Made by a program: the position numbers and the translations under genes. A stretch of DNA of 64,000 bases, taken from positions 39,096,406 through 39,160,405 of the forward strand of contig OY735231.1 of assembly GCA_963457665.1 (NCBI GenBank), given 5' to 3'. Shown here piece after piece: positions 22,185 through 63,389 of the stretch. The notes beneath the pieces are model-generated. The model saw only the letters and a program-made list of their open reading frames with translations. It searched no databases and was not told where the DNA came from. This DNA is from Thysanoteuthis rhombus. Its lineage: Eukaryota > Mollusca > Cephalopoda > Oegopsida > Thysanoteuthidae. Positions within the stretch are counted from its first letter, which is position 1. The number at the start of each line of letters is the position of its first letter.

Positions 22185-22769
22185 GTTTACTAGATTGAAA
22201 CAAAATTAAATTTTCAGAGAGTCCATTACAGATTTCTAACTTCAATCCCATAAAAATATGTTGGAGGAATTTAAGCTCAGATTGCACTCTAGCAGTAGTG
22301 GATTAACTCATTCAGGCCGGGAGTGCACATAGGTGCACCGTACATTTTATGGCCATTTTGAATATAGCAACCATTTCAAATGAGGCTATATGACCATTAT
22401 ATTTGTATAATTTTACCATAACTAAAATCCATATCTTATAATGTTCAAATTGATATATGACTTTGCAAGAAAACTTAAATCTTTGTAACCCTTAAAAAAC
22501 CCAGGCCTGAATGAGTTATATATTTAGGAAAAGGAGCATTTGATTTGGGTACTGCAATTCCAATGGCCCTGTGCTAAATGCTTGCTAACTATCAATTCCG
22601 ATTCAGTGATTCTGCACTTGCTCTATTATAATAGTACTCAATTTGCCTCCAATTTCTATGAACAACTGGGTGTTTAAAGACAGCAATTTTAGCCAAAGTT
22701 TTTATTCAGACATGGTTATTAGTTATAGTGAAGTATCTATAAGTTATAATTTTTGGTGTGCAAACCATA

Positions 22770-23049
22770 GAGTCAGTGACATCATAGAATCCATTAAAAA
22801 TCTCAAATGGCGGTGGGCTGGCCATGTTGCAAGAATGGCAGACAACCGATGGACATCACGACTCATGACATGGATCCCAAGAGATCACATGCACAACTGA
22901 GGCCGGTAGAATATTAGATGGAGAGACAAGCTAAAGAAGTTCAGGAAGTACTGGCTCCGCGACGCCCATGATAGAGAAGTGTGGCAAATCCTGGGGAATG
23001 TCTATGTCCAACGATGGACATTAAAAGACTGATGATGATGATGATGATC
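22770..23049 (+). mobile_element. RTE-type LINE 3' fragment, copy 5
   Basis: Reads VSDIIESIKNLKWRWAGHV, ARMADNRWTSRLMTWIPRD, then RKYWLRDAHDREVW and LGNVYVQRWTLKD, ending with (TGATGA)n at 23030-23047. One stop after HMHN. 5'-truncated. Confidence 0.85.
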
Positions 23050-25077: not shown

Positions 25078-25182
25078 CTTTGCAACGAGTGATCAGTCAT
25101 GGAAGTGAGGCCACAAGACATGCAGGGCGTGGCATCTTCTGGGAGCTTCAGTCAAGTAGTGTATACATTCCTTATACTCCAG
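25078..25182 (+). CDS. Exon: end of armadillo-like repeat, upstream of TIR
   Basis: The acceptor is a pyrimidine-rich tract ending TTTTTCCAG and the donor is CCAG|GTGCGA. The exon starts with two bases of a split codon and ends with one, so it is phase 1 to phase 1. Translation begins LQRVISHGSEATRHAG and continues GRGIFWELQ, an amphipathic helix pair ending in a GxxWxL-type pattern typical of the last helix of an armadillo repeat. Its last base G joins AC of the next exon to make Asp, giving a continuous TP-D-NMSVPH. Assignment to the TIR gene rests on this phase match, strand, spacing and the common ARM-TIR pairing. No alignment was run. Confidence 0.65.
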
Positions 25183-28100
25183 GTGCGACAAATTTTACTC
25201 TCAGATTTTACTCCTTCTTTTTTACCCTCATGTTTTTTTTCTTCCTGAATTTTATAAAATAATGTGTCAATTTGAAGTCCCCAGACAAAATTTATTTCCA
25301 ATGTCTGCATGTTGTCCTCTCTTCTTAGCACAGAATTCAATTCCTCCATAAATCAATATTTCTGCTTTGATTGTTCAAGTAAATGGCACACTCAGCAATT
25401 CCTCGGAACTGATAAGCTTGTAATTTTCTATCAAGCTTTGTACGTTTTCATAATCTGGAATAATGTGCATTTTACTGTTGAATGTATATTTTAAATTCCT
25501 CATAAAATCCATATTTCTGCTTTGGTTGTTCAAATAAATGACATATTGAGCCAATGTGAATTATGCCTGGAGATGCTCATACAGGCATTTCTATTTGATA
25601 AATAAATGAATTGATCATAATAGCACAAAAAGACATCAAAATGCCACACCCAATGATCAAGATAGCACACTTGGTCATCAAAATGGCACACTCAGTGATT
25701 AAAATTCTTGATTTTTCTTTATGATTCTACAGTTGGGAAATTTTGGTAATAAAATGCAGTGCATTTAGATCTATATCAGGCAACTCATCGATTTAAAACT
25801 CTAAATTTTGGTAAATTTTTAAATTGAACATAATACTATTATATCTCTTCAAATGTATGCATGTTATATTGGACTGGACAAGTCACATCTCCTTTTTGTA
25901 TATCTGGGTTGTGTTTTGGTGTCAACTTCATAGTTGAAAACAAACAGATTATCCAAGGGAAGCAACTCAGAATTTGACCCCAAAAACACAACCCTAACAT
26001 GCAGGATATATAAAAAATGGAAAAAATGAACTTACAGATGATGAAAATTGTTCATCCTCACCATATATAATGATTAGTACACCTTATCTAGCTAAATCCA
26101 ACAAGAAATACAAATCTATTCCGGGTAGTTATGTAACTATCATACACATATTTTTTACTGAAACTCAACTCCAACTTTGTGGGCACAACAAGAAGCTCCA
26201 GAAACTTATAAGAAAAATCTGTTTTTGGAACAAGGCGGTGGATGACTCAAATGCTTTGCCTTAAGCAATAATTAGATCACCTTCTCTGCTTATTTTCAAG
26301 TGGAGATGGTAGGGTTATGACGCATAAGTTATTACCTATCGATAATGATTCAATGTTTCATGATTTTCCTGACTGTGGATTGTCAAATAGCTCAGAGGGT
26401 CTCTTTTGAAAAGACTTTTGAGACAATCCAGTGCACTAACTCTACATGATGTTCTTGTGTTAACGGACAGCCAGAATGGTTTTGTGTTGAGAACAACAGT
26501 GCTAGGTGCTTTTCGTTGTCTTCCAGAGGAATGAAATTTTCTTTATTAAAAGGCTAAATAAATGTAATTGCAGGGGGGCAATATCTAGTTATAAACATAA
26601 TATGCCAAAAAATCTTACTTACGTTCTTCTATCTTCATGAGAAATCATCAACCAAAACTGTTAACACTGGTTTCTTCAGTTTTTAAGCCGGTCTGGCTGG
26701 CTCCATATTTATGTATGTATCATGTGCACAAGCTACACCAATCGAGGCAGAAGGCTGAAATTGAAACATTTACTCCCTATTATGTCTGTTTTTTAGCCCC
26801 TTCATAGAAAAAGTGTGGGGTTCAATTTGCAATGTAAGTTTATGCTAAATTAATCCTTCAGTTTGTGTCAGATAGCATTCATTCTTGACTTTTGAAATCC
26901 AGACTCTTTAGTAATCATTTACTAACAAAAGATGAGTAAATTAACTTATTCATTGATCACCCCTTTTCCGATTTCTCAATCGATCAACCCCAACATGGCA
27001 TGGTTCCAAAAGACATTGGTCATGTGATGGTTTCTATTGATTGACTAACAAGACCTGTTGGAGTTTTTTTCCCAAAAATGTACACTGATATGGCAGTGGT
27101 CACAAAACGAAAAAAAAATTTTTTTGAATGAAGTTAGTTAAAACTAAATGCTCCTAAAATCATTTTCCGGTTCCAGTTTGTGCTTTGAGTCACTACATAA
27201 CACCAACCACTACTGGTCAAATCTCTAACATTGCTTTATACCAACCATTGTAAGTCTCTATGGAGGTTTACTTACACTTAGTTGATAGTAGTTGAAAGCA
27301 AAGCATTTGGTTACCATACCTACTCTGACTTTATTCTGAGCTTAAAATATTCTCTTACCTTTTGATTGATTTCTTCTTAATTTGTTAATATGTACTTTTG
27401 AGTTGATGATTTCCCAGACAATTAATGGCATATCAAATAAATTCTGAGAAATCTTAATTAACTGAGCAGCTGAATTAGTTCAGTGTGGCAGGTAATATTA
27501 GGTCGTTACATATGAAATGTCATTTTGCTAAATCCAGCCCAAGCTGGAGTTAGCTTTGTTTTTTTTCCCATAACAAGTTCAATAATAATCCTCACCAAAT
27601 TTAGGGGAGTGAACTCTTCACTATTTGACTATCATGTCATGCTGAACCAAACTCATGCATAAAATGACCATTTCCTTACTGGGATTCGAAATCACGACAA
27701 AGTGATTGGAGGGCAGTTGTCTTACCAACTGCGCTAAACTGACAAGTCTTACATACCTATGAATTTATTTATTGCAAATACAATACAAAAGTTGCAGTAA
27801 TCATCTTCAGTTAGAATAGAAGTAGGAGTGGAGTTTGGTCGTGCAGCCTAGCTTGTTTTTGTCATCATATAGATCCTAATAATAAACCTTAAGGGAGCCC
27901 TAAACTGCTTCTTAATAATGAAGAATTATTGGCATCGATTACCAGTGACCTACAAACAATGGTCCAAGCAGTTCTGGAGATTTTAGGACTTCAATCATAT
28001 CATGTCATTTCATGGTAATAGGAAAAGCTACCAAGTTGGAAAAATGGGTCCTTCATGAACTGAATGAAATACTCTGAGGCTGCATCTGACCCCAAAGCTG

Positions 28101-31100
28101 CTTTTATCTAAGCTTAGAGAATTGGGATACGAAGTCTTGCAACATCCTCCATATTCACTTGGCATTTCTCTAATGAATTATCACCTTTTCAATTTTATAT
28201 CCATGATAAAATGTTCAATAATAGGGAAGTCATAATTCATGCTTTTATATGAATTTGTGACCACTAAACCAAAAGAATTTTATTGAGATGTCATATTATA
28301 ATTACAGGATCATTTGGGAAGGATAATTGCTTAAAATGGGTCATATTTTAATCAGATATTTACCAATTTTTGTTTTTTATATCACCCTTCATCTCGCTAT
28401 TCAAATAACAACATTTCATACATAACAATCTTGATGGATGGAGCCAGGGTTGCCAATTTAGCTCATTTAGAGCTAGATCTAACTCCTGTTTAGCACACTT
28501 AGCACTCAAAAGACTACATCTAGCTCTTAGCTCTGAATTTAGCTTCTTTTCAAATTAGCTGACTTTTTAATTTTCTTATTCAAGAAATGATTAGAAAATA
28601 TTAGATGAGTAAAATTCTTCCGAAACCTGGACTGGGAGAATAGAGGAATTGAAATAGGCAGTGAATGTCTAAGCAACCTAAGATTTGCAGATGACATCGT
28701 CCTTTCCGCAGAGAAGCTACACAACCTCCAACTAATGCTAGATGAACTAAATGAAGAAAGCTAAAGAGTTGGCCTACACATGAACTTCAGTAAAACAAAA
28801 ATCATGTGCAACGATCACATTGAGAATAAGGACATAACTGTCGAAATCAAAGATGCAAAACTGGGGAAAGTAGACCACTACATCTACCTTGGACAACAAA
28901 TCTTTATGAAGCCCTCAAAAGGAGAAGAAATCAAGCAAAGAATCACCCTGGGATAGCAAGCCAATAATCTCAATAATCCTAAAAAGAAGAGTATACAACC
29001 AATGCATCCTCCCAATAGTCACTTACGGAGCTGAAAGGTGGAACCAAACCAAGAGACAGACTCACAAACTGAGAGGTATGCAATGTGCATATGATAGAAT
29101 CATGTTCAACATCACATAGAGAGATCACAAAACAACACAGTATATAAGGAATAAAACTGGAGTCAGAGACATCATAGAATCTATTAAAAAACTTAAATGG
29201 CAAAGCGCAGGTCATCCAGACTCACAACATGGATCCCCAGAGATCACATGCGAAACCGAGGCCAACAGAATACAAGACGGAGAGATAAACTGGACAAACT
29301 TAGAAAATACTGGTTCCGCAACACCCATGATAGAGAAGTCTTGTGAATCCTGGGGATGGTCTATATCCTAGAACGGACATTAAAAGTCTGATGATGATGA
29401 TGAAATTGAAGTTATGTGAAAACACCAAATGATTATATTTCAACTGATTGTAAATTAAGAAGCATTAGGTTTTAGTCATATCAAGTGAATTTTCTTATGG
29501 AATTCTGTTTTTATTCACAGTTTTCTGAATGAGTGGACAATAACATAAGCAAAAATGTTGTGGTCCATGACCCACCCACCTCATATTGTAACGCTAAACA
29601 AACAATATTATGTCAAAGAAAATCCGTATTTAGCTCTTTTTTAGCTCCTTTTTTTTGTGGATTTAGCTCTAAAATCTATTATCAAGTTGGAAGATTTGGG
29701 TTGAGCTGAAAGCCAGTAAGTTAAGAAGATCCAAAATAACCAGGTAATTCATCCTGATGTCATATGAGTGCTGCTTAGGATTAAGAATGTAATAGACGTA
29801 GGCTGAAATAACTTTCAGATGAGCATGAAAAAATTCAAGGTGGTAGGATTGAAATAAACACAGTTTATTCATTTTAATTTTTGAACAATCACATTTTTTA
29901 AAAACATACTCATAAAATCTTTCATGGTATTAGCTGCGCTCATATACATAGACATGTAAGAAGTGAATAAATACCAACTGTTTTGCTTCAACTTTATTTG
30001 GGTATTTAAAGTACAAAATGAAGATCTGACTATTCTTTAGCCCTTTTAAAAGCAACAACTTGTCTTAGCAGAGAATCAGTAAGTTCTGAAATAGTATTTT
30101 GAGGTATTTTAGACTATGCTTGATGTTTGAGAATCAGCAAATCTGCACGTGTTGCTTTGCAACTTCTTATGCAAATTATTATCCAATATTGCCCACATCT
30201 GTTGAATGGGATTTCTGCCAGGGGACTGACTTGGCTGAGAAAGTTGTTTGATGCAGTATCTGAAAATTGAGCAAACCTAAATCTGTCTATAAAAATTAGG
30301 CTGTGCCAAAAAGCTAGGGACTTATGTTGATCTTAATTGCTCACTCAGTTCCTCATCTTGATATTAGTGGCAATGAAAAAGAGCTCCCTCCTAGCTGCTC
30401 GCCCGTAAAAACCAAGTTGATAAAGATGATTATTTGCTGTTCTTTGGCTGAGTTGAAATTTTTCTGCCGCTTCTGAAGCTTTAAAACAAGGTTTGTTCTC
30501 AGCATAAAACTACAGGTGTCTATTTACTTCTTGCATGTCTCTGTATATATATACTTGTGAAATCATTCCTGTTATTTTTTGTATTGTTACCAGTGAAAAA
30601 TTTCCTTTCATTCATTTTTTTCTTTGTGTCTATTTTCTCTCCGGCAGACAATATGTCCGTCCCACACATAATGATCAGTTACCAGTGGGATGCACAGCCG
30701 ATAATGTTAATGATCAAGGAAAAACTGGAATTGGCTGGCTACAAAGTTTGGATGGATGTGGAACATATGAGTAAGTGATGACGTCTCTGCTAAGGGGAGG
30801 GAACTCTGCAAAGCTTGAAACCCAAACGAGGCTTCAGGAGGCAAATGGATTTTAGGTGTCCATTCCACATGGTAGGCTAACAACAAGGTCAGTGTTGATA
30901 CAAAATAAAGTTCTGGGCACAGTTGTTGTATCCCTGGTTTCACTTCAGTTTAGTCAATGGTCATTTTGCTCTCTCCTGACCATCACTTCTAGTTTGCAGT
31001 CGACTCAGCAGAGAAGACAGTTGCCTCTTACTACATGGGAATGTAGTTTCCGTTGTTGTCAACACTTGATGTTGTTGTTGATATAAGCACAGGGGAATGA

Positions 31101-31649
31101 ATTCTCAGCTCACTTCGGACACACTGTCCGGTCATGTATTTTTATACTATGTAGAGTCTAAAGCAGTCGTATTCAAACTGTTCCGCAGAAACCCACTGAC
31201 ATTTTCGCAATATACTTAATAATTCTTCATTACATAAAAAGATTCCTTCATTCCTTGCTTTTACACATTTTTATTTTATTACTTTGACATGAACAGTACT
31301 TTTCATATAAGTAAAAATCCACAACATTTTAATTCGAAACATCATTATTTACATGATAAGGACGCTGTTAAGTCATCAGTTGCTCCTTAGTAAGTTTCAT
31401 TTGTACTTTGCCATTCAAGTGTGTATTTTCTTTTTAGGTTAATAGACATTCAGATAATACAAGGACAAAACCCAATAGTTACGTATTTATTTGGTGAATA
31501 CTTTTCATAGTTTGTTTTCGTTGGTCCTTACACATAGATGAGCAGAGTATCATGTGCTGAGTTATCCTAGCACCTAGCAGTCATTCACCAAGAAGTCAGT
31601 GTTCAGTTTTCAGCGCTGAGTAGACTTGCGCAGAGAAATCTGGCAACTA

Positions 31650-31686
<37 letters not shown>

Positions 31687-34600
31687 GCCTTTGTGTGTGT
31701 GTACACACTACTGGACCATTTATCTGGCAAGTAGAAACTGGTGATGTCACAAATTTCTGGAATTTGCGGTTTTCTGGACCAAGACTTGATATATACTTGA
31801 AATATAAAATGAACAGTGGAAAATAAAGTACGAAATTGTATTTAACAGATATAGATCTATACACTTCTGAAGCAGGGCCTGTTTGATCTTATCAATCTAC
31901 TTAAAATTCTTTGAATATAGAATATACATACCACAATCATGGCCAAGTAGGTAGTCTGGTATTATTCTCTGCTGATTGTGTTTCCATTCTGGAGATTTTT
32001 GTAATTCTTACAAATTAATCTACTTTAAACACTTGGTTTTTTAAATCAATATTAACCTGCTAATATTCATCTGAAGACAATTCAACATCTGGAGTGACAG
32101 ATACAAAGAGAGAAGACATACATGTATTGGAGGTCAGTCTTGAGGCTCAGGCTGGACAATTAGAAGTTTCTCAGTAATCTTTGAAAACATGTCCAGATTC
32201 TGTTGTTTCATAAACTTTGGTCTTTCCTCAATGAAAACCTCGTGAATACTTTATGCTCTGGGCTAGATTAAGGTGTTTGGGGGCCTAAGCACTGATAAGA
32301 TATGGCCTTGTATATGTAGCTCAATGATGAAGTTTTTTTGCTCCATTCCACGAATCAGTTCCTCGATCAAGCTATCCACCTATCCACAGACCAGAGATTC
32401 TCAACCTTCTTTTTTCCATATCAACTCCTTTTGGTTATTTTTTTAAAAAAATCTTTCGCATCTCTTGGCTCAATTTTTTCTTAGTTAAATATGACTATTC
32501 TGCATAATCCAAGTTTAGATACTCACATCAAATAACTTGACTGTACATCTTCTGAAAGGAATATTGCGTAAAGCCTATCGCCTACTTTTTTTAAAAGGAA
32601 TCCACTTGTATGTATCAATTAGCGTCCCTTGGGGCTATATTGCCCCCTTTGAGAATAACTGTAAGTAAATAGACACTTTTTTTCTCCTCTCAGAGCACTA
32701 TTATCACCATCATCACCATCATCATCATCATCTCTCTCATCTGGTTTGCCCACATAAACATTCATTATTATGTCTATAATTTCACTATCAGCGTGTTGGA
32801 GAATGACTGGAGCATCTCTATCGATATTTATACACTCTTTTATCACCCTTTCATTAAGATGTAATTATTTGCTAATAAAGGGAAACAACCCACTGATAAC
32901 CGTAACAGAAATTTGCACCTGATTATCAGGCAACTAGCCGACCGCACCTGCGCCTCTGTTGTTCCTTATACAATCTGTATGAATCCACCCTTAATGCCAA
33001 TATTGCTTTAAGCATTGATACACTCACAATCCAGTAACAACCTGAAACCTGACTTGGCTAATCACATGACAAATATATTGCATATTAGAAACTGTCAACT
33101 AAAACTGTCAACATCAACACTGGTCTCTTCAGTTTTTAAGTTGGTTTGGCTGACTGGCTAGCTATGAATGCGTCACATGTACAGGCAACACCAATGGAGC
33201 TACAGAGCTAAAAACTTTGATATTTATTTGTTATTTCTTCAGAAAACCCTTTTTGTGTTTTTTGAAAATTATCCATAAAGTTTAATTGATCACCCCAAAT
33301 GTGGCATGCTGCCAAAAGATGTTGGTCAAGTAACAGTTTCTACTGAGTGACTAACCAGACCTGTTCTAATAAATTCTCTATCTATTCTTCTCTATTTCTT
33401 CCTCACAAGACATGAAAACCACAAAAATCAGGTTCATCAGGAAATAAGGATGATGGCCATAGTTTATACCAGCATCCTTGGGGACATTGTCCCTGGATGT
33501 TGCCGCACTCAAAGTGCATCTTCATTATTCAATGGTTTCGGAATTTTTTTTACCCCTGTGCCGTGGTTGTAAATGTCTAGCCTTCTCTGTGGAAATACAT
33601 CCCTGTCCTTGCACCTGAACACTGACATTGCCTCATCAGAAAGCAACTTGGCTAATTCATCTAAATACGCCTCTGCAGGTTTGTGGTCTGCAGAAACATT
33701 TTGACCACAAAGATTCAGTTTGCAAATACTGTGCCTCTGTTTAAATCTATCAAATCATCCAGATGAATATCCATAAAAAGTTGTCCTTGTGGAAAAGTTT
33801 AGCTTTGGCCATTATCAAGGCTGAATTAAGGTTTTTGCAGTTCCTTGGCACTAATGAGATCTGGTTCTCCCTAATATTTCAAAATGTATATAATTTCATG
33901 ATGTTTTGATACATAGATTTTGTAATGATTTTAAATATACTTTTGGTAGGAACCCAAATTTTTTGTTTGGGCCAAGGCATTGTGCCTGGTGTGCTTAATT
34001 GATAATACAGCCTAGGCCATTACAATGAAATGACTTCGTTAGGTGGAATCTTCTCTCTATGATGCTGCCTAATCCATTCAAGCAACACTCTGTCCATGTC
34101 TACACTCTCTGATTGGTGTAAGCTTTTTCACTTGTCTCTTAATCTAGACACATCACTATCACTGTAGAATCTAAAAATCTCTTCCTTCTCTTTCTTGATA
34201 TCATAGATTACAGATGTACCAACACTCACTCGAATGCCACACTTGAGCACTTTTATTGAGTCTCATAAGTAACTGTATCTCCTTTGATATACTGAGTGCA
34301 AAATGTTTCCATTTTGGTTTTCCACCAGCAAGTTTTCTGCTGGTCTCTTAGACATGGTAATGAATGAAAACTTGATTTATACATAATTTGCTTTATACTA
34401 AATCCTTCCCTCTGATTACCTGCTTGTTATCAAAACTGTTATTTTGTATCTAATCAGTTTATATTCGGTTGATAGGTGGATCGACCCTGGAAGCAATGGC
34501 CCTTGCAGTGGAGAGATCAGCACTGATTTTGATTGGGGTCTCCCAGAACTACAAAGACAGTCCAAGTTGTCGGACAGGTAAGGATGATTTTCACTGAAAT

Positions 34601-37600
34601 AGCCTGGTTTATGTGTAAACAAGTGGCATATGTAATGTCCATGTATTTCATTTCGTTCATTCAAATGTAAATAAAGGGAATCAACTTATCAAATTGTAGC
34701 TGTTATGGCAGTTATCAGATGAAGCCTCTTTCTGGATAACTGGAGCTGGCTACTCTTGATTAGCAGCAGCCATTATGATCACACGTTTCTTCATTCTTTT
34801 CTTATTTCTGTTGCTACTAACACAGTTAAAAACAATTGTGTTTTAAGCAGCAGATATCTAACCAAACAACCAAGCAAAGATATAACTGCGCATTATCTCA
34901 TAAAGAGAATATTATAAAAATTTTTGTAGAAAATTGTTTAAAAAATCTGTATTCTGTTGACACTGAACAAAAATTTTCTTTGAATATACAAAAAAAAAAC
35001 ATTTGGATTTTAAGAAATCTTTCACTAGAAGAGGCAAGTCAGATATTTCTTGATATTATACCAATCCTTTTTATATATGGATCTTTTCCAACTGGTGTCC
35101 TCATCTGCTTGTTGTACTTGGTAACTTTCTGGAAATTTCAAACTGAACCCTTTATTCAGTTCTCATAGATGGATTGTTTTCTTCCTGTTGTCCATGTCAA
35201 ATAAATCATTGTATAATAATGATAATTGCTCTTCTCGGAAATTTTGACAGAGTGTATCAATGTTTGTTTTAGAGTTTTAAGTGGAGACATCGTCAGCATC
35301 ACCTTCATTCTGTTCTCTGTCTATCATCATGGCATACAAATGGTTGAAATGACTTAAAATAAGAGACAATATTGAAAAGGTTTAATTCATGGTTTTATTC
35401 TTATTTAGTCATGTTCCTTAGTGATGATGTAATACAATATACTGTTTATAAGTAACTAGTTACCCATGTCATAAAAAATGGCGGCAAATATGAAATATAC
35501 GGATGCATATCGCACATTATTTATGTGAATAATAGAGATTTGAATCACAGTGAGCTGAAGGAATAGCGTTGTGATGATAGAAAATGAATTCTATCATTTT
35601 TTTTGTTTTATTACTTTGTATATTTTTATTATTTTTTATTTCAGTATTTTCATTTTGTCATCAGATCAACAAATTCTATTTTACTACGTCAGTTACGCCC
35701 TTTTGAGTGACAGAAGACAAGCACACATTTCTAAAAATTGTATGAGTGGATGATGCAATATGACACACTGTTTATAAGTAATGATACAATATAATGCATT
35801 ATTCATCAATAATGATACAATATGATACACTGCTCATAAGTAATGATACAATGTAAACACACAATAAGTAATGATACAATATAAACACTTGATAAATAAT
35901 GATACATTATAATACACTGTTTATAAGTAATGGTGCAATATAAACACTTAAGTAATGATACAATGTAAATACTTACTAAGTAATGATACAATGTAAACAC
36001 TTACTAAGTAATGATACAATATAAACACACAATAAGTAATGATACAATATAAACACTTGATAAGTAATGATACATTATAATACACTGTTTATAAGTAATG
36101 GTATAATGTAAACACTTAATAAGTAATGATACAATGTAAACACTTACTAAGTAATGATACAGTGTAAACACACAATAAGTAATGATACAATATAAACACA
36201 CAATAAGTAATAATACAATATAAACACTTGTTAAGTAATGATACATTATAATACACTGTTTATAAGTAATGCTATAGTGTGATATACACCAATTAATATG
36301 ATATCACATGATATTTGACATGCTTTATGGCTTTGATTATTATTTTTCTTCATTCCAGAATCCGAATATGTTTTCCGGCTGCGAAAAGATATGATCCCAA
36401 TAATGGTTCAAAAAAATTATATTCCTGATGGTTGGCTTGGTATGCTGGTGGGCACTAAACTCTATTTTGACTTTAGTCATCCGACAGACTTTGATGCTCA
36501 AATACCACGTCTCATTAAGGAAATTGGACCGAGGGGCTTGCTGGTCCCCAATGAGGATCTCAATGTACTCAACGGTTTGTAATCCATTATTCCCTTTATA
36601 ATGCTCTATCTTCTGGGTGTCTCTTTCACAATTATTATCAGTGTGGCAATTGTTACCTTTCCTGTTTTTAAATGGCTGCTGTTTCAGCTGTACAATAACA
36701 GATGCTGATGATAAACTAACCCTAACACTTACCCTAAAAATACTAATCCTAATCATTACCCTAAAAGTACTAACTCTTACCCTAAGAATACTAACTGTAA
36801 CCTTAAACCTAGCCGTCTGGGAAATGGAAAAGGTAACAATTGCCATTAAAGCTCCATTTATTGATTAATGGATTAATTTATTTTTATATAATTGGTCTGA
36901 AGGTGCTTAACATAGAATGATTATTCACAAGTGATATTAGCTGGTAATATGCGTTTGATTCTTATGTGTCCGACTATTATAACCTTGTACAAAACTTATC
37001 TAAGCCCAGTAAATATCTGTGTAACAAATCAGAAAAATCTGGGCTATATGAAGTCTGTCAGACTACTTTGAAAAGTGGAAGGGAGGCTGGAATACGTGTA
37101 TGTGTGGTCCCAAGAGGACTACATTAAAGTGGACTAAGATGCCACTGCTCTTGGTAGGCTATTTTTTGTTAACACAGGTGTCCACTTTCATAGTGCGCAT
37201 GTTATGGTCCAAGAAAGCTAACTATGTAATGACGGAATTACATCACAGCTTGATTGTAACTACATTACAATCAAACTGCAAAATAATTCAGCCATTTTGA
37301 AACTGAGTCTAGCTATTTTGGAGCTAGAATAATAGTTAGGGGTCGAAACCATCTACCCACATTAAGACACAAACTGTGCAATAACAAACCATTTCATGAA
37401 GAGGGAGGCCTGTAGTATATGGCTGGATACTCTCTGAACAGCCGTTGTACATATATATTGTGTAGATTTGAGATGATCCAACAGAATATTAGTAATTTGA
37501 CAATTGGAAGGCAGAGAGGAGTAAGAACAGGTGTTACATCACAAGAATCTTTATTGTCATCTGAGCATGTTTTGATACATTTTGATGGTTGCCACCACCT

Positions 37601-39830
37601 TTTTCAAAAAACTTTGCTGCAGTTGCAGAGAAAGCTGTATGCAGTTTACATGTTACCTCTGAGAGTTATTATTGTATCATTATTATTTTAGCCCAACCAC
37701 ACGTGTGTTCATGTAAAACCCAGGGTACTCATCACCAGTCGTACGGATTATGGAATTCTGCTCAAGTTGCCAAATGGCTCGATAATTCTGGCCTGAAACA
37801 TGTGAAAGAGAAGTACGTTAACAATTTTGTCTCGGATTTTTTCCCTCATTTTTAAAGTTCTTTCTTTTCTTTCTTTTACTTCTCACTCCTTTTATCTTTT
37901 TTTTTAATGTTTTATACATTTAAATCTTGTTTTTTTTCTACCTTTCTCTCTTTTTACTCTTTCTCTTTATCTACGATGTTGCTTTGTAATATAATGCTAT
38001 ATTCTTGTTCATAATCAAGTGTGTAGACCAGCTACACCTTACATATGTTGCACACATAACCCCAATATATATTTAGACATGATAAAAAAGAAATTTGGAA
38101 AATTGCCTTCTCCAATAACAAAATTCACCTTCAACCCAACCTTCTTCCACCAAGTCTTATTCACAACCAATTACTCATATAAACCAAATGCTTCATTATG
38201 TAGTTAAAATGCAATTCAAATAAAAAATGCTTAGTTAATTAATTTGCATGAATTTCATTTCAAATGCTCATGATAGATTTAAAAGGAAACATTTGTGAAT
38301 TATTTCTACTCATTCAAATATTTTTGCATTACTTATCGCAGGTGTCAGACTGTTTTAGAGTCTCTGTACTCAGGATAGGTGATCAATATCATGGCCGATC
38401 AGTTTTCTATTCTTATTAAGTGATAAACTGAACACCCCAAGCATTAATAAATCTATTTATATCAACTTATATAAACATTAGTGTCTGTTGCTTTGCAAAG
38501 CTAAAATGGTCATGATGTATTTGCGTTTATATTTAAGTGTATAGACCAACTATACCTATAATATTTTTCACACAAAACCCTAAATTATATCTGAATAGAA
38601 CGATCAATTTTTTTCTTGAATTGCATGCTTAAACCAGTTTTTCTACTGTTTTAAAAATCTCTGTACATGAAAGGGGGATCAATAAAGTGGTGAATCAGCT
38701 TTCGATTGTTACCATGTGATTAACTGAACCCCCTCTTTAAAACGTCTTGATGTAAGATGTTCCAAATAATGAAATCCACACACGTCCAACCAGTTTCTAC
38801 CTGGTCTTATTCACAGCACAATTTACATATATACATATATATATACATATATATATATATATATGTATGTTTGCTGTGTGGATGTGAGGTGATCCGACTT
38901 TTTTTTCGTATGCACCCATTTCATTATACAGTGGATTCCAGTTCACAGGACCACATCGAGAATTATGATTTGGACCTAATAACCTGCTGGTCCAATTAAC
39001 CAAACATCTTCATTTTCATGCACAAAACACTAAAGATTTTTTAAATCCAAGGAGAACAACTTGCATAAAAACCAGAACAAATCAACTCCTATTAATTTTC
39101 TCACAAACTAAAAATATTTGAAAGATTGTTTTGAGAACTAAACAAATATATATTTTAGTAATTCCATCACAATTTTATCGAATTAGTTCTTACAAATTGG
39201 TCTTATTGGGTAGCTAGTCCTAAAGACTGATAGAGCTATTAAATGGAGTCCACTACATTTCGGAATATCATTTTCCACTTCCAGGATTGTGTGACTCAAA
39301 AAGTGCATTCTAGAATTTTACCTTGAAGAAAGATCGATATTCCCACAATTTAGATATGCCAATCTGTGGTCCCAACCCTGCCCCGAAATCCTAAAATTCC
39401 TGCTGGTTAATGGGGCCCTGGTTGAGAACCTCTGATATAAATGGTGAGAAGGCCTGATCCAGTTGAGGGCAAATGTCTTGATGGCACCTCTAGTAGATAC
39501 TCAAAAAACTCCACTCAGCCAGTAACTCTGTCATAAACATAACTGTAACAACCCCCAATATATTTTTATTGCTTAAGTTAAATGGAAGCTTACCTTTTTG
39601 AATGTTAGTGCAAGCAAAAATACCCCGTGTTTTCTATCAAGAAAATCAATCACTTGTATTTATTTTCCAGTTTTGCTGCTTTCGATGGGGAACTCCTTGA
39701 AGAACTGTGTCGGGTCCAAGTAACAGCACCAGAATTTTTCTACAAAATCCTTCAGACAGAATTTAAATTAAACTTAGCAGACATTCTCAAGTTATCCAAA
39801 GGCATACACCACTTGTCATCAAAACGATAA
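25078..39830 (+). CDS. ARM(partial)-TIR-SAM domain protein, 3' six exons
   Basis: Six exons joined in phase encode the last 274 residues of a protein whose 5' end was not found. Residues 1-34 look like the end of an armadillo-type helical repeat. Residues about 37-181 are a TIR domain with strand A (ISYQWD, 44-49), the BB-loop region (MDVEHMSGSTLEAMA, 70-84) and a CRTESEY segment (107-113) before the strand IPIMV. Residues about 200-266 are a SAM domain starting GLWNSAQVAKWL. All five introns (5465, 3705, 1781, 1117 and 1858 bp) have GT-AG ends. Four introns are phase 1; the last, inside the SAM domain, is phase 2. TIR domains act as adaptors or NAD-cleaving enzymes and SAM domains oligomerise, so a cytosolic signalling or NADase role is inferred. 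SARM1 has the opposite order (ARM-SAM-SAM-TIR). No signal peptide or membrane segment is seen in this part. No convincing poly(A) signal follows the stop. Confidence 0.85.
25330..25705 (+). repeat. Duplicated segment and 24-bp tandem repeat in intron
   Basis: AATATTTCTGCTTTGATTGT at 25351 recurs as CATATTTCTGCTTTGGTTGT at about 25510. Then 25614-25705 holds about four units of a roughly 24-bp repeat, ATCAAAATGGCACACTCAGT-like. Confidence 0.7.
25830..26635. other. Intron sequence, no feature recognised
   Basis: Includes AAGGGAAGCAACTCAGA at about 25957, a variant of the AAGGGAGATAAC word. Confidence 0.4.
26640..27058 (+). repeat. Dispersed repeat family A, copy 6 (intronic)
   Basis: Near full-length core: AACCAAAACTGTTAACACTG, TTCTTCAGTTTTTAAGCCGG, CCCCAACATGGCATGGTTCC and an end at ACTAACAAGACCTGTT. 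Confidence 0.8.
27640..27752 (-). mobile_element. tRNA-like sequence, probably SINE head
   Basis: The reverse complement has TTTAGCGCAGTTGGTAAGAC (A box) and GATTTCGAATCCCA (B box) 34 bp apart. The stems do not pair well and unrelated sequence continues 3', so a SINE or tRNA pseudogene is more likely than a working tRNA. Confidence 0.55.
28440..28600. repeat. TTAGCTC-rich repeat, left part
   Basis: Dense AGCTC/TTAGC words (ATTTAGCTCATTTAGAGC, CATCTAGCTCTTAGCTC). The same words resume at 29625-29675, after the LINE at 28605-29405, suggesting one element split by insertion. Confidence 0.5.
28605..29405 (+). mobile_element. RTE-type LINE, RT end plus C-terminus, copy 6 (intronic)
   Basis: Contains the intact RT catalytic box in LSNLRFADDIVLSAEKLHNL, then LMLDELNEES, a stop, RVGLHMNFSKTK, MCNDHI, KVDHYIYLGQQIF, and the RLTTWIPRDHMRNRG and KYWFRNTHDREV segments. 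It ends TGATGATGATGA at about 29388-29402. It lies inside the 5465-bp intron of the TIR-SAM gene in the sense orientation. Confidence 0.88.
30010..30520 (-). pseudogene. Collapsed Tc1-like transposon (intronic)
   Basis: On the minus strand, the N-terminal DNA-binding text ASEAAEKFQLSQRTANNHLY then QLGFYGRAARRELFFIATNI is followed within about 250 bp by the C-terminal catalytic text QPSQSPGRNPIQQMWAILD. Most of the catalytic domain is missing, so this is an internally deleted relic. It ends about 130 bp before the TIR exon acceptor. Confidence 0.75.
30648..30770 (+). CDS. Exon: N-terminal half of TIR domain
   Basis: The acceptor is a strong pyrimidine tract ending CTCTCCGGCAG and the donor is ATGA|GTAAGT. 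The exon encodes TIR strand A (VPHIMISYQWD), helix A (QPIMLMIKEKLELAGY), strand B (KVWMDVE) and the start of the BB loop. The in-frame ATG at 30653 could be taken as a start, but the good acceptor just upstream and the matching phase of the 25078-25182 exon argue that it is internal. A downstream start would give a short TIR-SAM isoform. Confidence 0.9.
31085..31645. other. Intron sequence, no feature recognised
   Basis: No repeat or RNA recognised. Confidence 0.4.
31651..31683. repeat. AT microsatellite
   Basis: Uninterrupted TA run in an intron. Confidence 0.95.
31690..32390. other. Intron sequence, no feature recognised
   Basis: No supported feature. Confidence 0.4.
32392..32661. mobile_element. 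Possible degenerate hAT-like MITE
   Basis: The left end CAGAGATTCTCAACCTTC resembles hAT termini. The right end CTTTGAGAATAACTG is a poor inverted match and no clear 8-bp duplication flanks it. Confidence 0.3.
32699..32732. repeat. CAT/ATC trinucleotide repeat
   Basis: Imperfect ATCACC/ATC run in an intron. Confidence 0.85.
33088..33365 (+). repeat. Dispersed repeat family A, copy 7 (internally deleted, intronic)
   Basis: AACTAAAACTGTCAACATCA, TTCAGTTTTTAAGTTGGTTT, TGTGGCATGCTGCCAAAAGA and an end at ACTAACCAGACCTGTT. About 130 bp of the centre is missing. Confidence 0.75.
33370..34470. other. Intron sequence, no feature recognised
   Basis: Some weakly coding-like text near 33480-33720, without a recognised family. 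Confidence 0.35.
34476..34577 (+). CDS. Exon: BB loop to helix C of TIR domain
   Basis: The acceptor is GTTGATAG|GTGG and the donor is GACAG|GTAAGG. It completes Ser across the previous intron and then reads GSTLEAMALAVERSALILIG and VSQNYKDSPSCRT. The G-x-x-L-E-A-M-A pattern after the BB loop and the hydrophobic strand before VSQNYK are standard TIR landmarks. It ends with the first base of a split Glu codon that is one candidate for the catalytic glutamate. Confidence 0.9.
34680..35750. other. Intron sequence, no feature recognised
   Basis: An open frame at 34836-35168 has no homology I recognise. It is AT-rich and probably random. Confidence 0.35.
35755..36278. repeat. Minisatellite, about 28-bp unit with higher-order period
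   Basis: Roughly 18 units of TAAGTAATGATACAATATAA plus ACACTT/ACACACA. A variant unit, ACACTGTTTATAAGTAATG, occurs at 35764, 35914, 36082 and 36253, giving a higher-order period of about 150-171 bp. It ends about 80 bp before the exon at 36359. The minus strand reads as repetitive Tyr/Ile/Val open frames. Confidence 0.92.
36359..36574 (+). CDS. Exon: C-terminal half of TIR domain
   Basis: The acceptor is TTCTTCATTCCAG|AA and the donor is AACG|GTTTGT. It completes Glu and reads SEYVFRLRKDMIPIMVQKNY, then PDGWLGMLVGTKLYFDF, and ends LLVPNEDLNVLN. The WLG-x4-G-x-K-L-x-F-D-F block and the strand IPIMV are typical of the invertebrate multidomain TIR class that begins with ISYQWD. A second GT four bases downstream (36579) is an alternative donor but would break phase with the SAM exon. 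Confidence 0.9.
36644..36845. mobile_element. Small inverted-repeat element with CTAACC-like array
   Basis: TGGCAATTGTTACCTTTCC at the left end is matched by GGAAAAGGTAACAATTGCCA at the right end. Between them, 36716-36814 holds about four units of roughly 21-27 bp built from CTAACCCTAA/TTACCCTAA words. No target duplication is obvious. It lies 70 bp past the donor of the last TIR exon. Confidence 0.7.
37440..37690 (+). repeat. Dispersed repeat family F, copy 3
   Basis: TTGAGATGATCCAACAGAAT, GACAATTGGAAGGCAGAGAG, CATGTTTTGATACATTTTGA and AAACTTTGCTGCAGTTGCAG match the other copies. A further 5' piece (GGATGTGAGGTGATCCGACT) is at 38878. Confidence 0.6.
37692..37812 (+). CDS. Exon: linker and first half of SAM domain
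   Basis: The acceptor is TTATTATTTTAG|CC and the donor is GAGAA|GTACGT. The reading is AQPHVCSCKTQGTHHQSYG, a short Cys/His-containing linker, then LWNSAQVAKWLDNSGLKHVK. The W-x4-V-x-x-WL pattern is the canonical first helix of a SAM domain. The exon follows immediately after a dispersed repeat (family F, 37440-37690), so its acceptor lies at the edge of repeat DNA. Confidence 0.88.
38010..38760 (+). repeat. Diverged segmental duplication within last intron
   Basis: AAGTGTGTAGACCAGCTACACC near 38017 recurs as AAGTGTATAGACCAACTATACC near 38534. GACTGTTTTAGAGTCTCTGTAC at 38348 recurs as TACTGTTTTAAAAATCTCTGTAC at about 38645. Both pairs keep the same order. Confidence 0.65.
38830..38866. repeat. 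AT/ACAT microsatellite
   Basis: TATATACATATATATA-type run in the last intron. Confidence 0.9.
39671..39830 (+). CDS. Terminal exon: second half of SAM domain and stop
   Basis: The acceptor is TTTATTTTCCAG|T. The first base completes Asn, then FAAFDGELLEELCRVQVTAP follows. The F-x-x-x-x-D-G-x-x-L-L motif is the SAM mid-loop and helix signature. The end is DILKLSKGIHHLSSKR and a TAA stop at 39828-39830. The stop is followed by a T-rich then A-rich stretch (39841-39930) and no clear AATAAA. Confidence 0.9.
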
Positions 39831-47349: not shown

Positions 47350-47985
47350 ATTACTGATGTGGTTTTGTAAACAGTGAGTAACAAGTTGATCATTCTTTAT
47401 TTTGATTTCTATCCTTCACGTATGCATTAAGATACTGTTTTGACCATCAAGTTCATGAAACACTTGAACCACATGTATTTAATAGTGGAACTCTTCAATG
47501 AATATCATGAAGATAGTGGAACTCTTCTGTGAATTAAAAAGAAAAGAAATTAAAAACACTCTGAATGGTCAAAAAGAGATAATTCCAGTCAGAAGTTGGT
47601 TCCCATGAAATTCTATTTTCTTTGTATGAATTCAAGAGTTTATATAGTTCCTGTGATTAACAGATGCATATAAAACAGAAATCACGACATATATCTGTAT
47701 ATATAAACAACATTTATCTAGGACACTAAATGAAATAGTTTGGACGTAGAGTTATTTATATAACTGAGAAAAAAGTTGTTTGAAATGATCGTTTAATACA
47801 TTTGATCTAATGTACATTTTCTTATAATGTATATGAAATTTCAAAGCTCAATAATATTATGGGGATGAAATTGGGCTAGTTACATACATATGTATACACA
47901 GACATTTACTTATGCACACAGAATGATGTTAATACTTGGTTACAGCAGTCCCACTTGTAGACTTTAGACATCATTACTACATTTA
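47350..47985. other. No feature recognised
   Basis: No supported gene or repeat. Confidence 0.4.
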
Positions 47986-55380: not shown

Positions 55381-57205
55381 TGTCATGTGTGAAAATCAGG
55401 GGTTTCAATATCAATGGAGTTGGTTAACTCTGTTTGGCTTATTGAGACATGAAAATCGGGCCGTTTACATTTCATGAATAGAAGAATGATGACTTGATGA
55501 GTTTGGGACTGGCTACTGGCTTCTTAAAATTCTATCAGCGGAAAAAATCAGTCAATTGTGTTAACTGAAATGGGAAGTGGGTAATAATGCTACTTTGGGA
55601 ATAATTCCACGGTGGAATAAATTCCACAGTGAAAAGAGTTGCTGGTGAATCCATTTAATTTGGTGTCTAGGATCAAACGCAACATTATATTGCTTTTTAG
55701 TATTGTTTATCAAATGTTAAATTTCTCAATCTGCAAAAAAATTAAAATCGTATGATAATACTTTTATACCTCTATAGCAAAGAGTATACAAAAGTCTATT
55801 GGCGTTGCTGAGCACATTCTTAATTTGAATTTTAAATCTATGTAGTAATAGAATTTCAATATATTTACCATATACATATGAAAAGAATGTGTGCATATTA
55901 TATTCTCCATGATCAAGAAAATTTGGCTGTGCAATTATTTCTCCAGTGGAATAATTCCCAGGTCTCATTGAGACCCTTTCATTAAAAAAAAAATTACGGG
56001 GGGGGGGGTTGTTGAAATTTCACCAGAAGTTCTGAAAATGTGCAAATTCAATGTACTGAAGGCATATCGTGTACATTTATGACAAACAATGCTTTTAGGG
56101 GTACTGAGGAATGTCAAATCTTAATCTGCTGTATGCCCAGCTCAAAATTGATGACAGTACCTTAAAATTGAGAAATACACGTTGGACGTCGATCTAAAAA
56201 TGTGCTGAATTCCAAGTGCTGAAGGAAAATCGCGTTCATTCATTAGAAACAATGTTTTTACGGATATTCCGTTTCTTGATTGTATTTGTTTAACGAATAA
56301 TTCGCTAAATACGATAATTTCTGCAGTACATATAGCATTTAAGTAGTCTCTGTACCTTCAATCTAAAAATAGACTATAGCAATTGAGTTTCACATTTATT
56401 AAAATCTACAGAAGCACATTTCTAACCTGCCCAGTAGAAAAAATTGACATAAATACATTTAGCTCTTTGGCGGCGTCCATCTTGGATTTTTCAATTTTCA
56501 CGGTCTCTTGGTCATTTTTAAACTCTGCATGCTGCGAATTTGGATTTAGCACCCCACATACGCTTAAAAATACTGTCTGCCATAAATTCATACGATTTGC
56601 ATTTGGCGTTTTGAGTTGGTATCATAGATTAATTGAATACCTTACGTTTTTGGCATATTGGCAATTTGCTTCTCAGTATATCTCTATCTATACCAAATGC
56701 TTTCCAGTCAATCGTTATAGGTCGTCTTATTTCATTTTCGTGGACTTTCTCTGACTTTATTGCCAGACCTGGGAAAATACATAGTGCATGTTCGAGTGCA
56801 CGCCCTTGTGCACATAGAAAAAAGAGGAAAAACTGAAAGTTAATGAGAAAAATGTCTTTAATGAAGTCTTTTTACATTCCATACATCAGACGATATTTCT
56901 TCGTTTTTTTTTTCAAAAAATGAAGAGAAGAAAGAAAATATTCAGGAGAAAGGGAGGGGGTAATGATATTGAAGGAGTGGGAGAAGGATTTTTATATGCT
57001 TTTTTTGGTTAATTCTTTTAAAATTTCAATTGGAGTCTTCATATTCCAGAAGTCAATTTCAAATTTACCTTCCAGACGATTAATTTTTCTTTTTCCAATA
57101 TTGTTTTTTTTTCTCCATAACCTACTAACGTTAACAAATATCCAATTAAATAACTTCACGACAATTTGGATTTTTTTTTTCAAGTAAATTATTTAAAAAG
57201 TTTTC
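55381..57205. other. No gene recognised
   Basis: Includes a G-run at 55999-56008 and a minus-strand 61-codon frame (56406-56591) with an acidic segment, not recognised. Confidence 0.35.
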
Positions 57206-57856: not shown

Positions 57857-58132
57857 CAGGGCCTCTGAGAAGTGGGTGTTTCGCACCGGGGCACGGGGGC
57901 CAAATGGCGGTCCGAGTTTTAAATTTTTAGGTAGATACAATATGTCCATTAATAAAATAGGATGACTCAATCATTTACTGGCAAGCGAGTTGAAGATGGT
58001 GTGCTGAAAGAGTTATAGCAGATAAAAACTGCGTGGCTAAAGGACGAGGGTGTTTGTGTAGCGTGTGAGGGGGGGGGGGCGGGGGCGAAAGCAGCAGTGC
58101 ACCGCCTCATAAAACTCCTCACGGAGGCCCTG
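57857..58132. mobile_element. hAT-like GC-rich MITE
   Basis: The ends CAGGGCCTCTGAGAAG and (inverted) CAGGGCCTCCGTGAGG match at 12 of 16. It is flanked by CTGTCTCG and CGGTCTCT, which match at 6 of 8, as expected of an aged hAT target duplication. The 276-bp interior is unusually GC-rich, with a run of G at 58069-58085. Confidence 0.75.
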
Positions 58133-58335
58133 CGGTCTCTCCATTATTCACTCATTAAATTCCTGTTCAGTTGTTGAAAAATAGAATTGATTTTTTTAAA
58201 TTTCTTTTTTTTTTTTTTTGAGGTTGTGGAATATTTTACGTTTATCTTTCTTTGATTTGGACAAAGAAGATTGAAAGCAAGTGATTATCATTGTTGGAAG
58301 ATTGAATCCGATCGAAGGAAAAAAAAGAAGGAGGA

Positions 58336-58372
58336 GTAGGAGAAGAAGAAGAAGAAGAAGAAGAAGACGAGA
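58336..58372. repeat. GAA trinucleotide repeat in purine-rich tract
   Basis: (GAA)n core within about 58310-58580 of almost pure purine, giving Glu/Arg/Lys or antisense Leu/Phe-rich frames. Confidence 0.9.
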
Positions 58373-58689
58373 GGAGGAGAATGACAACTTTAGAGAGAGA
58401 AGAGAAGGGAGGAATTCGAAAGAGAAGAAATTAGAAATTCGAAGAAGATAGATACAAAAAAAATGTGCGATAGAAAAACAAGATGCACAAAAAGAAGAAG
58501 AAGAACAACAACAACTGATAGAAAAAGGAAGACAGAAGAAAATACGAAGAATGGAGAAGAAGAGGAGGGAGTCAAGAAGTTGTTTGAATCCACATTAGCT
58601 GTATGACCAGTTGTGTAAAGGCATCTCTACAACATTTATCAAGATATTATTACACTTATCACAACTTATGGTTTTAAGGGAGAAACACG

Positions 58690-58812
58690 ATGATGATGAT
58701 TATTATCAATAATAATAATAATATGATAATAATAATAATGATAATAATTATAATAATAATGATGATTACAATAATAATGATTATAATAATTAATAATAAT
58801 AATAATAATGAT
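58690..58812. repeat. AAT/GAT trinucleotide repeat
   Basis: Imperfect AATAATAATGAT run with spurious Asn/Ile frames. Confidence 0.95.
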
Positions 58813-58936
58813 AACCAACAAAAACAACAAAAAACTGCAACACACGCACATATGAGACAGTGGAAAAAAATTGTGTATCACTTCAACCATCTTTTGCTTT
58901 AAGTTGGTAAAAATTCGGCAATAGATTGTGAAGGGA

Positions 58937-59077
<141 letters not shown>

Positions 59078-59106
59078 ATTCAAAAAAGAATAAATGAATA
59101 AATGTG

Positions 59107-59282
59107 AAATACGCTGACAAAGGTAGTACCAGTTGTCATAGGTGCACAAGGAACTATCAAGACAGAATTTAGTGACCATTTCGAACAGATCTCGGATATG
59201 CCATCGACAAGGGAACGGTGGAAAATTGCACTTGTAAAATCTCCAAATAACCAGAGAAAATTCCTCACGTAGAATAATAACA
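59107..59282 (+). pseudogene. LINE C-terminal fragment (VVPVVIGAQGT)
   Basis: Reads TLTKVVPVVIGAQGTIKTEF, then DHFEQISDMPSTRERWKIAL and VKSPNNQRKFLT-stop. This is the C-terminal IPVVVGALGxIK signature of a REL-type LINE, from a different subfamily than the copies at 60-63 kb. Confidence 0.6.
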
Positions 59283-60059
59283 TTTAGGCTTCTTGTTCAG
59301 ATTTGATAGCTTTGTAAAAGCCGACTGCAGCTGTGAATCGTAGGCCATGATAAATAATCGCTATTCAAATAGTAATATGATCAGTCACAATAATTATGCA
59401 GGAAAAACAGAACAAAAGAAACAGCTAACAAGCAATTTAAAAGTACTGGTTGACCATATCTTGAACCTGAGGAAGATTGAAACAATAGAAAAATATTAGG
59501 ACCTCTCCTGAGAGATCCAGAATTGTTGATTAACTGTTATTGTGCCAATAGCCATCGATACCAAATAGTAATCCAACGATTGCAAAGAAGGATATAAATA
59601 TAGACGGTGATGATATTGAGGAAGGTGCTGGGTTTTTCAAAAGATCTGGTGCCATCTGGATTTTCAATAAGACCTGCCAGAGAAGTGTGAATAATTATGA
59701 CGATAAAAAGAAGTTGAAGAGACAGAATTTTTAAAGATCTTACCCGATTCCTTGCTCTTTGAATGGTCCCCAATATTACTCTATTACGATAGCAGCAATA
59801 ACAATACAAATCGAATGATATTAGCGTAAAAAGGCATTAGAAGATAAAAATGAGTCAAGTTCTGCGGAATATCGAGGTTCAGACTGATTACCCATTCTAA
59901 TCAAGCTAGCCAATAAAGAATATCAAAGCAGGCTTAAGTCTGTAGGAGCAACGATTTACTAGGAACTGTGCTAACGACTTAGGTTCGACTATCCTAATAA
60001 ATAGTATGTCCACAAACCAGAAACTACCTAAGGAAATAAAAAAGTCAGATATTCTGGAA

Positions 60060-60640
60060 ATTTTAGATCTAGAATGACTATCAAAGTAAGAAGACCGGAC
60101 GTAGTTGTGGACAAGGAAAAGAAAGTCTGCCAATTTATGGACGTGGCTGTCCGGCAGCCAACACGGTGGAAATAAAAGATACCAACACAAAAGTAGAAAA
60201 ATACCTAGAGTTCACCAGAAAGCTGTTTGAATTGAAAGCTGGAGTCGTGCCCATTATAATAGTAGCACTGGGAACCGTCTCAAAGACACTAAAGCCGGGA
60301 TCGAAGGAATCGGAGATTCAGGAAAGCGTTCAGACTTTTCAGACGACGACAGTGCATGGATCTGTGAGAACATTCAGAGAGTCTTCAATATGTATGCAAA
60401 TGCATAAGATTGTTCCTACTACAGCAGTGCTTGGATTTTTGTGAATACAGAGGAAGGTCCTCGAGATTCAAGAAAACTTACTGTTATACTCTATCTTCAA
60501 AGACAACCAATAATTTGGAATGAACATGCAAAGGCATTAGATATCATACAGACCCCTCATTATCACACAATTCGTTATAGCATGGTTCACGATATAAAGC
60601 AGGTGGGTGGTGGACCCCAAATATTAATATAACTTTAAAA
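60060..60640 (+). pseudogene. REL-endonuclease LINE C-terminus, frameshifted
   Basis: RRPDVVVDKEKKVCQFMDVA contains the RPD...D endonuclease residues. After one frame change, VEIKDTNTKVEKYLEFTRKL and ELKAGVVPIIIVALGTVSKT follow. It ends with IVPTTAVLGFL-like and RKVLEIQENL-like text, also seen at 63155-63240. 5'-truncated and inactive. Confidence 0.75.
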
Positions 60641-60690
60641 TAGCTAGATCTAGCTCCAGGACAGCTAGATCTAGCTACGAAATTGGTTCA
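60641..60690. repeat. AGCTAGATCTAGCT direct repeat
   Basis: ATAGCTAGATCTAGCTCCAG is followed by ACAGCTAGATCTAGCTACG. The words resemble the TTAGCTC repeat at 28440-28600. Confidence 0.6.
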
Positions 60691-60789
60691 CCTGGACCCC
60701 AACACCTGCATTATTAGAGGGGGTGCCTGTAGTAATAATAAGCGATATGAAGGGTGACAAACAAGTCCATAATCACTGGAATATTGCGA

Positions 60790-61230
60790 AGACCCTTTCG
60801 AAGGGTCTGTAAGAATTAGAGATGTGGAAGAAATTGGGACGATTCAAACATCAGCACTGTTGAAGTCGGCGAGAATGCTAGGGTCTGCAAGGATACTGAG
60901 GAAGGTGCAAGAGACTTGCTGTCACTCAACCTGGCGTGAATATTCATATGTATGAAAAATATTAGTATAAAAAAGAACCGAAACCATTTAGACGACAGAG
61001 TTACTATATTTAGCTATATTGTCGAGGAGAGTTCTGGAGTATTGAGACCTCCTGTCACTTGACCTCCAATAAAAGCCACTAATTATTACTTGTGTGAAGA
61101 CTTGGTGGATATGATAATAATTAAAAAGTCAGGATGAGTAAGACAGCTTCTGAAAACAGGCAAGAATACTGAGAAGAGTACTTGAGTATTGAGGAGACTT
61201 GCAGTCAGTTTATTACTGAGGTATAACCGA
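60790..61230 (+). pseudogene. REL LINE 3' end fragments (two or more)
   Basis: ALLKSARMLGSARILRKVQE at about 60850 and LSLDLQ... at about 60890-60930, then a second DLLSLDLQ-type ending with AATAAAAGCCACTAATTATT at 61065, and an ARILRRVLEY-like stretch at about 61170. These are repeated C-terminal and 3' UTR pieces of one LINE family. Confidence 0.6.
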
Positions 61231-61239
61231 TTGAAAAAA

Positions 61240-62690: not shown

Positions 62691-62699
62691 TATGCAGGT

Positions 62700-63385: not shown

Positions 63386-63389
63386 GAAG

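Follow-up and report, generated by a model that had tools for sequence, protein, structure and literature searches.

The window analysed here is a stretch of 64,000 nucleotides (C36:39096406-39160405, contig OY735231.1) from the 2.73-Gb genome of Thysanoteuthis rhombus; positions below refer to it unless another contig is named. Between 25078 and 39830, on the plus strand, we have identified six exons, flanked by AG/GT splice sites and consistent in phase, which joined encode 274 amino acids in a frame that stays open up to a TAA stop. The predicted protein enters this region with the end of an ARM part, continues with a TIR and finishes with a SAM at its very C-terminus. Only the last ARM repeat falls inside the window, and a long ARM exon is located 6.8-7.8 kb to the left of its edge (negative positions below).

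-7784 to -6756 (C36:39088621-39089649), plus strand: upstream ARM exon, matching the ARM profile and forming an in-phase junction with the exon at 25078.
25078..25182, plus strand: exon 1, last ARM repeat (LQRVISHGSEATRHAGRGIFWELQ...) and a short linker, beginning and ending in phase 1.
30648..30770, plus strand: exon 2, first part of the TIR (PHIMISYQWDAQ...GYKVWMDVEHM).
34476..34577, plus strand: exon 3, second part of the TIR (GSTLEAMALAVERSALILIGVSQNYKDSPSCRT).
G at 34577 and AA at 36359-36360, plus strand: glutamate codon interrupted by an intron, aligned with the catalytic glutamate of SARM1.
36359..36574, plus strand: exon 4, third part of the TIR (ESEYVFRLRKDMIPIMVQ...YFDFS...) and the start of a linker.
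37692..37812, plus strand: exon 5, linker and first part of the SAM (LWNSAQVAKWLDNSGLKHVKE), with the SAM_2 match.
39671..39830, plus strand: exon 6, rest of the SAM (NFAAFDGELLEELCR...ILKLSKGIHHLSSKR) and the TAA, protein C-terminus.

This structure bears out the original prediction of six in-phase exons for an ARM end, a TIR and a C-terminal SAM: splice sites, phases and the TAA all agree, with the fifth exon counted from 37692, where the preceding acceptor (ttattattttag) preserves the frame. An alternative acceptor for this exon, before 37724, was rejected because it breaks the frame. Splicing and expression of the gene are deduced from the genomic sequence.

The upstream exon came to light when the 80 kb left of the window were searched with a profile built from ARM repeats. 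Phase 1 is shared by its donor and by exon 25078, the junction reads ...KEPGCIEALQRVISHGSEATRHAGRGIFWEL... and the intron between them measures 31.8 kb. With this exon included, the model comprises seven exons and 618 amino acids, every junction is in phase and no stop occurs before the TAA. The 5' boundary of the upstream exon is uncertain, as the frame is open also from an acceptor 70 bases earlier, and the exon carrying the start codon was not found in the 144 kb made up of the window and the 80 kb to its left. Joining raised the ARM_PUB score from 21.6 to 28.0 bits; the match crosses the junction, and both values stay below the threshold of 33. Exon 25078 gave an HMM match at E 0.0022 with a profile which itself includes this exon; the ARM label, not decidable from it alone, becomes clearer once the upstream exon is joined. 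An early ARM pattern search had matched a single ORF, by eye a chance match, and missed exon 25078. In the PDB, the top matches of the ARM part were beta-catenin, plakoglobin, designed ARM proteins and APC, and SARM1 was absent among the 50 matches listed to E 1.

The domain search on the six joined exons, named beforehand as a check, recovered Pfam TIR_2 at E 7.9e-20 and SAM_2 at E 9e-4, the latter just below its cut-off. The relations of the TIR were taken from pairwise scores and not from small TIR trees, where a number of the bacterial entries came from incorrect or incomplete frames. The BLASTP panel consisted of the SARM1 of the same genome, a Death-TIR-like gene on contig C22, two TLRs and nine bacterial entries, of which three were in incorrect or incomplete frames. 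The nearest TIR was that of the Death-TIR-like gene (58 bits), and two Bacteroidales TIRs, both of which had been picked for likeness to the query, scored 37-46 bits. The genome's own SARM1 TIR gave no BLASTP match at E 10 or better to the TIR of this gene or to that of its paralogue on C22 (see below). A profile built from these two TIRs found as its best solved structure Cat1 (CRISPR-associated TIR 1; E 8.2e-6, though 28.8 bits only), an NADase and bacterial CRISPR protein, whereas SARM1 followed at E 0.05-0.095. In the single-sequence search of the PDB, SARM1 accounted for 13 of the 14 matches listed, at E 0.19-0.73, so some SARM1 likeness remains. Relatives were found in 2 of 171 prokaryote genome stretches, both from Bacteroidales and at 28% identity, and in none of 43 stretches of viral contigs.

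Both ARM-TIR-SAM proteins fit TIR_2 far better than Pfam TIR, TIR_2 being a model too broad to distinguish subtypes (PMC13142454). The paralogue TIR passes in addition the cut-off of Pfam TIR (PF01582; 23.8 bits versus 21.3), the model described in the same source as fitting the TLR/MyD88 clade. A glutamate, the first one of CRTESEY (CRTEAEY in the paralogue), is established in the sequence of both paralogues at the catalytic place, where it aligns with the glutamates of the genome's own SARM1 and of two TLRs. We read this column as the putative equivalent of E642, the catalytic residue of human SARM1 (PMC7688312). The glutamate alone is no proof of activity; judged from the sequence, enzymatic activity of this TIR is plausible.

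The SAM_2 match amounts to 19.8 bits against a cut-off of 20.5 in the 274-residue protein and to 17.8 bits in the 618-residue protein, and the SAM of the paralogue reaches 18.4 bits with SAM_3 against a cut-off of 22.6. The Pfam SAM matches, below cut-off in both paralogues, mostly cover the first half of the domain. A two-SAM profile searched against the PDB gave liprin-beta on top (E 0.01), with SARM1 (E 0.09-1.3) and neurabin also matched, all at values near chance. In a profile-profile comparison, both SAMs aligned to five SAM sequences (one of them from this genome) with a probability of 93% (E 2.8e-7, 61 columns), versus 0.2% for the TIR alignment that served as control. About ten extra residues are present around APEFFYK in the SAM of both paralogues. 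We accept the C-terminal domain as a SAM whose second half is divergent. An additional SAM further upstream, which would restore the order of SARM1, was looked for: among 1,894 plus-strand ORFs of at least 22 residues in the 144 kb, the best SAM-profile match beyond the gene's own two SAM exons had E 0.42. The SARM1 order is therefore not hidden in the upstream sequence searched, from which short exons could escape. A short SAM-like peptide at 47880-47957 (NDVNTWLQQSHL), 8 kb downstream of the gene, is the one with E 0.42 among these 1,894 ORFs and is probably a chance match.

A second ARM-TIR-SAM gene is present on C22 at ~23.85 Mb, in the same order and collinear from ARM to SAM (pairwise BLASTP 3e-57, 110 of 357 residues identical). 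It comprises an ARM part with one exon across the junction, a TIR in three exons, a linker and a SAM in three exons ending with TGA; three more ARM-like pieces lie upstream. Since a single exon of the paralogue (56233-56489 of the reversed stretch) covers the ARM junction, the 31.8-kb intron does not seem to hide a further exon. That the protein would place ARM, TIR and SAM in this order, with the SAM at the very C-terminus and the SARM1 order reversed, had been proposed for the window gene; the paralogue repeats the order and supports the proposal, and at the level of predicted proteins we regard it as confirmed. Identity between the paralogues amounts to 65 of 136 residues in the TIR and 22 of 70 in the SAM, and exon 36359-36574 is 55% identical over 66 residues to its C22 counterpart. 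Codon positions 1, 2 and 3 of the TIR are identical in 81, 101 and 44 of 136 cases, which is the pattern of protein-level selection; for the SAM (30, 42 and 26 of 70) the bias is weaker. No signal emerged from the ARM end when compared without gaps (21, 19 and 18 of 58), a stretch which has 4 identical residues and needs gaps. The intron within the glutamate codon, after CRT, has identical place and phase in both genes, and the ARM-to-TIR intron agrees in phase and, in the BLASTP alignment, in position to within one residue, whereas the positions of the remaining TIR intron and of the SAM introns are not shared.

Besides this gene and the C22 gene at ~23.85 Mb, whole-genome protein searches returned weak matches at C22:40.57 Mb and a single one, no better than chance, on C18. 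The number of ARM-TIR-SAM genes is thus at least two and is not a census, as eight loci were read in frame out of at least 37 TIR matches. A third candidate, at C22:40.57 Mb (C22:40572098-40573495), was rejected: its TIR exons, the nearest found in the genome to the ARM-TIR-SAM TIRs, come after a Death-like segment (by eye), and the locus was therefore not counted as ARM-TIR-SAM.

SARM1 drives axon death, and its control relies on ARM, a SAM ring and TIR arranged in one fixed chain order. Its ARM part holds an NAD+/NMN site and inhibits the TIR. According to published accounts of SARM1, ARM is inhibitory, eight subunits are joined in a ring by their SAMs, and the TIRs become active once they meet, cutting NAD+ (PMC8635717, PMC7688312). 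The genome has its own SARM1 on contig C47: a SARM1 fragment matches at C47:31539974, and upstream of it SAM_2 matches twice in the same orientation, at 31544517 and 31545771. The C47 frames read SAM, SAM, TIR, which is the ordinary SARM1 order. A normal SARM1 is thus present, and the ARM-TIR-SAM gene, with one SAM versus two in SARM1, is additional to it. The same genome-wide SAM_2 search missed the SAM of the ARM-TIR-SAM gene itself, which is split by an intron, a limit inherent to such searches.

The gene product is best seen as an invertebrate ARM-TIR protein, such as molluscs are known to have, to which a SAM is joined at the C-terminus, and not as a SARM1 with moved domains. We favour, with a probability of about 0.55, a protein (probably cytoplasmic) in which a TIR of another lineage than that of SARM1 would be restrained by ARM and assembled by SAM. 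At rest, the ARM solenoid would keep the TIRs apart, while the C-terminal SAM would gather the subunits; a signal sensed by ARM would then let the TIRs pack together and become active, whether through NAD+ cleavage or through recruitment of partners. The working would be SARM1-like, with gate, assembler and TIR, and the assembler would sit on the other side of the TIR, which may imply a different activation geometry, as originally suggested. Gating, oligomerisation, catalysis and an immune role are here suggested by analogy. With SARM1 and TIR-1 (ARM-SAM-SAM-TIR NADases) the protein shares the presence of ARM, SAM and TIR in one chain, the glutamate at the catalytic place and, likely, the logic of gate, assembler and effector; unlike them, it carries the SAM after the TIR and one SAM instead of two, and neither its TIR nor its ARM is closest to SARM1.

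A more far-reaching version, which we offer tentatively, is that animals possess a second, independently assembled gated TIR enzyme, with an ARM gate, a TIR NADase from a separate lineage and a C-terminal SAM assembler in the opposite topology, which might serve cephalopod immune defence or cell death alongside the normal SARM1. If so, ARM and SAM would hold the TIR from its two ends. A natural protein made of SARM1 parts, with the SAM across the TIR, could show which features of control depend on topology.

The same gene and order would also be compatible with a TIR that is no enzyme and serves as a scaffold or adaptor in Toll/MyD88-type signalling, with ARM and SAM docking to partners. This is possible, if doubtful. 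The company of the nearest TIR found in the genome, in a gene with a Death-like segment (seen by eye, not by HMM), is adaptor-like, and adaptor roles have been suggested for mollusc ARM and TIR proteins in two studies (PMC6836662, PMC9334734). The passing of the PF01582 cut-off by the paralogue points in the same direction, given the TLR/MyD88 clade which that model fits (PMC13142454). However, neither paralogue has lost the glutamate, the TIR profile finds its best solved relative in the NADase Cat1, and TIR_2 suits both proteins far better than TIR does, broad as TIR_2 is with respect to subtypes.

That the exons are adjoining pieces of different genes or a decayed copy is improbable: such a view would fit the long introns, of which the largest measures 31.8 kb, their LINE-like remnants, the low scores of ARM and SAM as single domains and a genomic model whose start codon was not found, but seven exons are open, in phase and stop-free until the TAA, the TIR shows the codon-position bias against its paralogue, and the domain order is repeated there. 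Least probable of all is a copy of SARM1 with its SAMs shifted behind the TIR, a reading which is disfavoured even though the three domain types are the same, SARM1 dominates the single-sequence PDB matches and the SAM profile weakly matches the SARM1 SAM (behind liprin-beta), for the genome's own SARM1 keeps the normal order, its TIR goes unmatched to E 10 where the Death-TIR-like gene scores 58 bits, the two-sequence TIR profile puts SARM1 behind Cat1, SARM1 is missing from the 50 ARM matches listed, and one SAM was found instead of two.

The combinations TIR-SAM and ARM-TIR are each already known. Oyster has ARM-TIR proteins on record (PMC4346834), and for Aplysia a table gives 11 of them, while three Aplysia genes with TIR and SAM are all named SARM (PMC9334734). 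Our protein resembles this mollusc class in having ARM-type repeats followed by a TIR and differs by the C-terminal SAM, which goes unmentioned for the class in the accessible portions of both sources (PMC4346834, PMC9334734). Relatives may sit among the Aplysia genes called SARM, for which the domain order is not given there. A natural protein of the present order also suggests that counting every TIR with SAM as SARM, the practice followed for Aplysia, can merge different genes. The ecTIR-DC family 6, ARM-Death-TIR-TIR, likewise consists of invertebrate TIR proteins with ARM repeats; it has a Death domain and two TIRs, and the available text mentions no SAM (PMC6836662). In contrast, a Pfam scan of the ARM-TIR-SAM protein (618 residues without the 5' exon) shows a single TIR stretch and, at a limit of E 0.1, no Death domain. 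Amphioxus has a TIR-SAM gene, Brafl1_131196, reported in 2008 as separate from SARM and with a cDNA recovered (PMC2575513); it also unites TIR and SAM, and the comparison is by its name TIR-SAM, apart from ARM content or exact order. In a TIR survey, many mollusc TIRs of diverse architectures fall into one group, group 18 (PMC7075850), and a 2026 preprint describes uncharacterised TIR clades, exclusively eukaryotic, with molluscs among their members (PMC13142454).

Artificial TIR-SAM fusions of plant TIRs with the SARM1 SAM are active in plants in a glutamate-dependent manner (PMC10242710), so an added SAM can drive a TIR. They share with our protein a SAM next to a TIR with its glutamate, but they are engineered, use the SARM1 SAM and have no ARM gate mentioned in the part of that article consulted (PMC10242710). 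These fusions qualify the original prediction that no functionally characterised protein of this order is known; for natural proteins it stood in the literature searched, from which Gerdol 2017 and Zhang 2011 were missing. The phrase ARM-TIR-SAM together with TIR domain was likewise absent from the literature searched; Gerdol 2017, the principal study of TIR architectures in molluscs, lay outside it and may already include this one.

Several further features were seen around these genes. Remnants resembling the C-termini of LINE reverse transcriptases occur at 22610-22900 and 28765-29371 (e.g., DIIESIKNLKWRWAGHVARM; by eye), and similar pieces recur around both ARM-TIR-SAM genes, one of them within the intron that precedes the first TIR exon. 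When ORFs of the C22 stretch were compared by BLASTP with those of the C36 stretch, the matches listed (60 of 181) were mostly LINE-like repeats. An AT-rich repeat (of the AATGATACAATATAAACAC type, by eye) occupies ~35760-36270, immediately before the third TIR exon, and the sequence at 58000-64000 is purine-rich, with positive GC and AT skews.

Elsewhere in the genome, C34:2946573-3207301 contains at least 15 TIR_2 matches of similar scores in ~260 kb, often ~15 kb apart, which constitute a tandem array of TIR genes; two of them have TPR-like repeats before the TIR (frames, by eye). A cluster of reflectin-like genes, a family characteristic of cephalopods, lies at C45:35.7-37.6 Mb and identifies the animal as one, probably squid-like: a squid reflectin query gave at least 35 matches in the genome, 32 of them on C45, the best being 88% identical.
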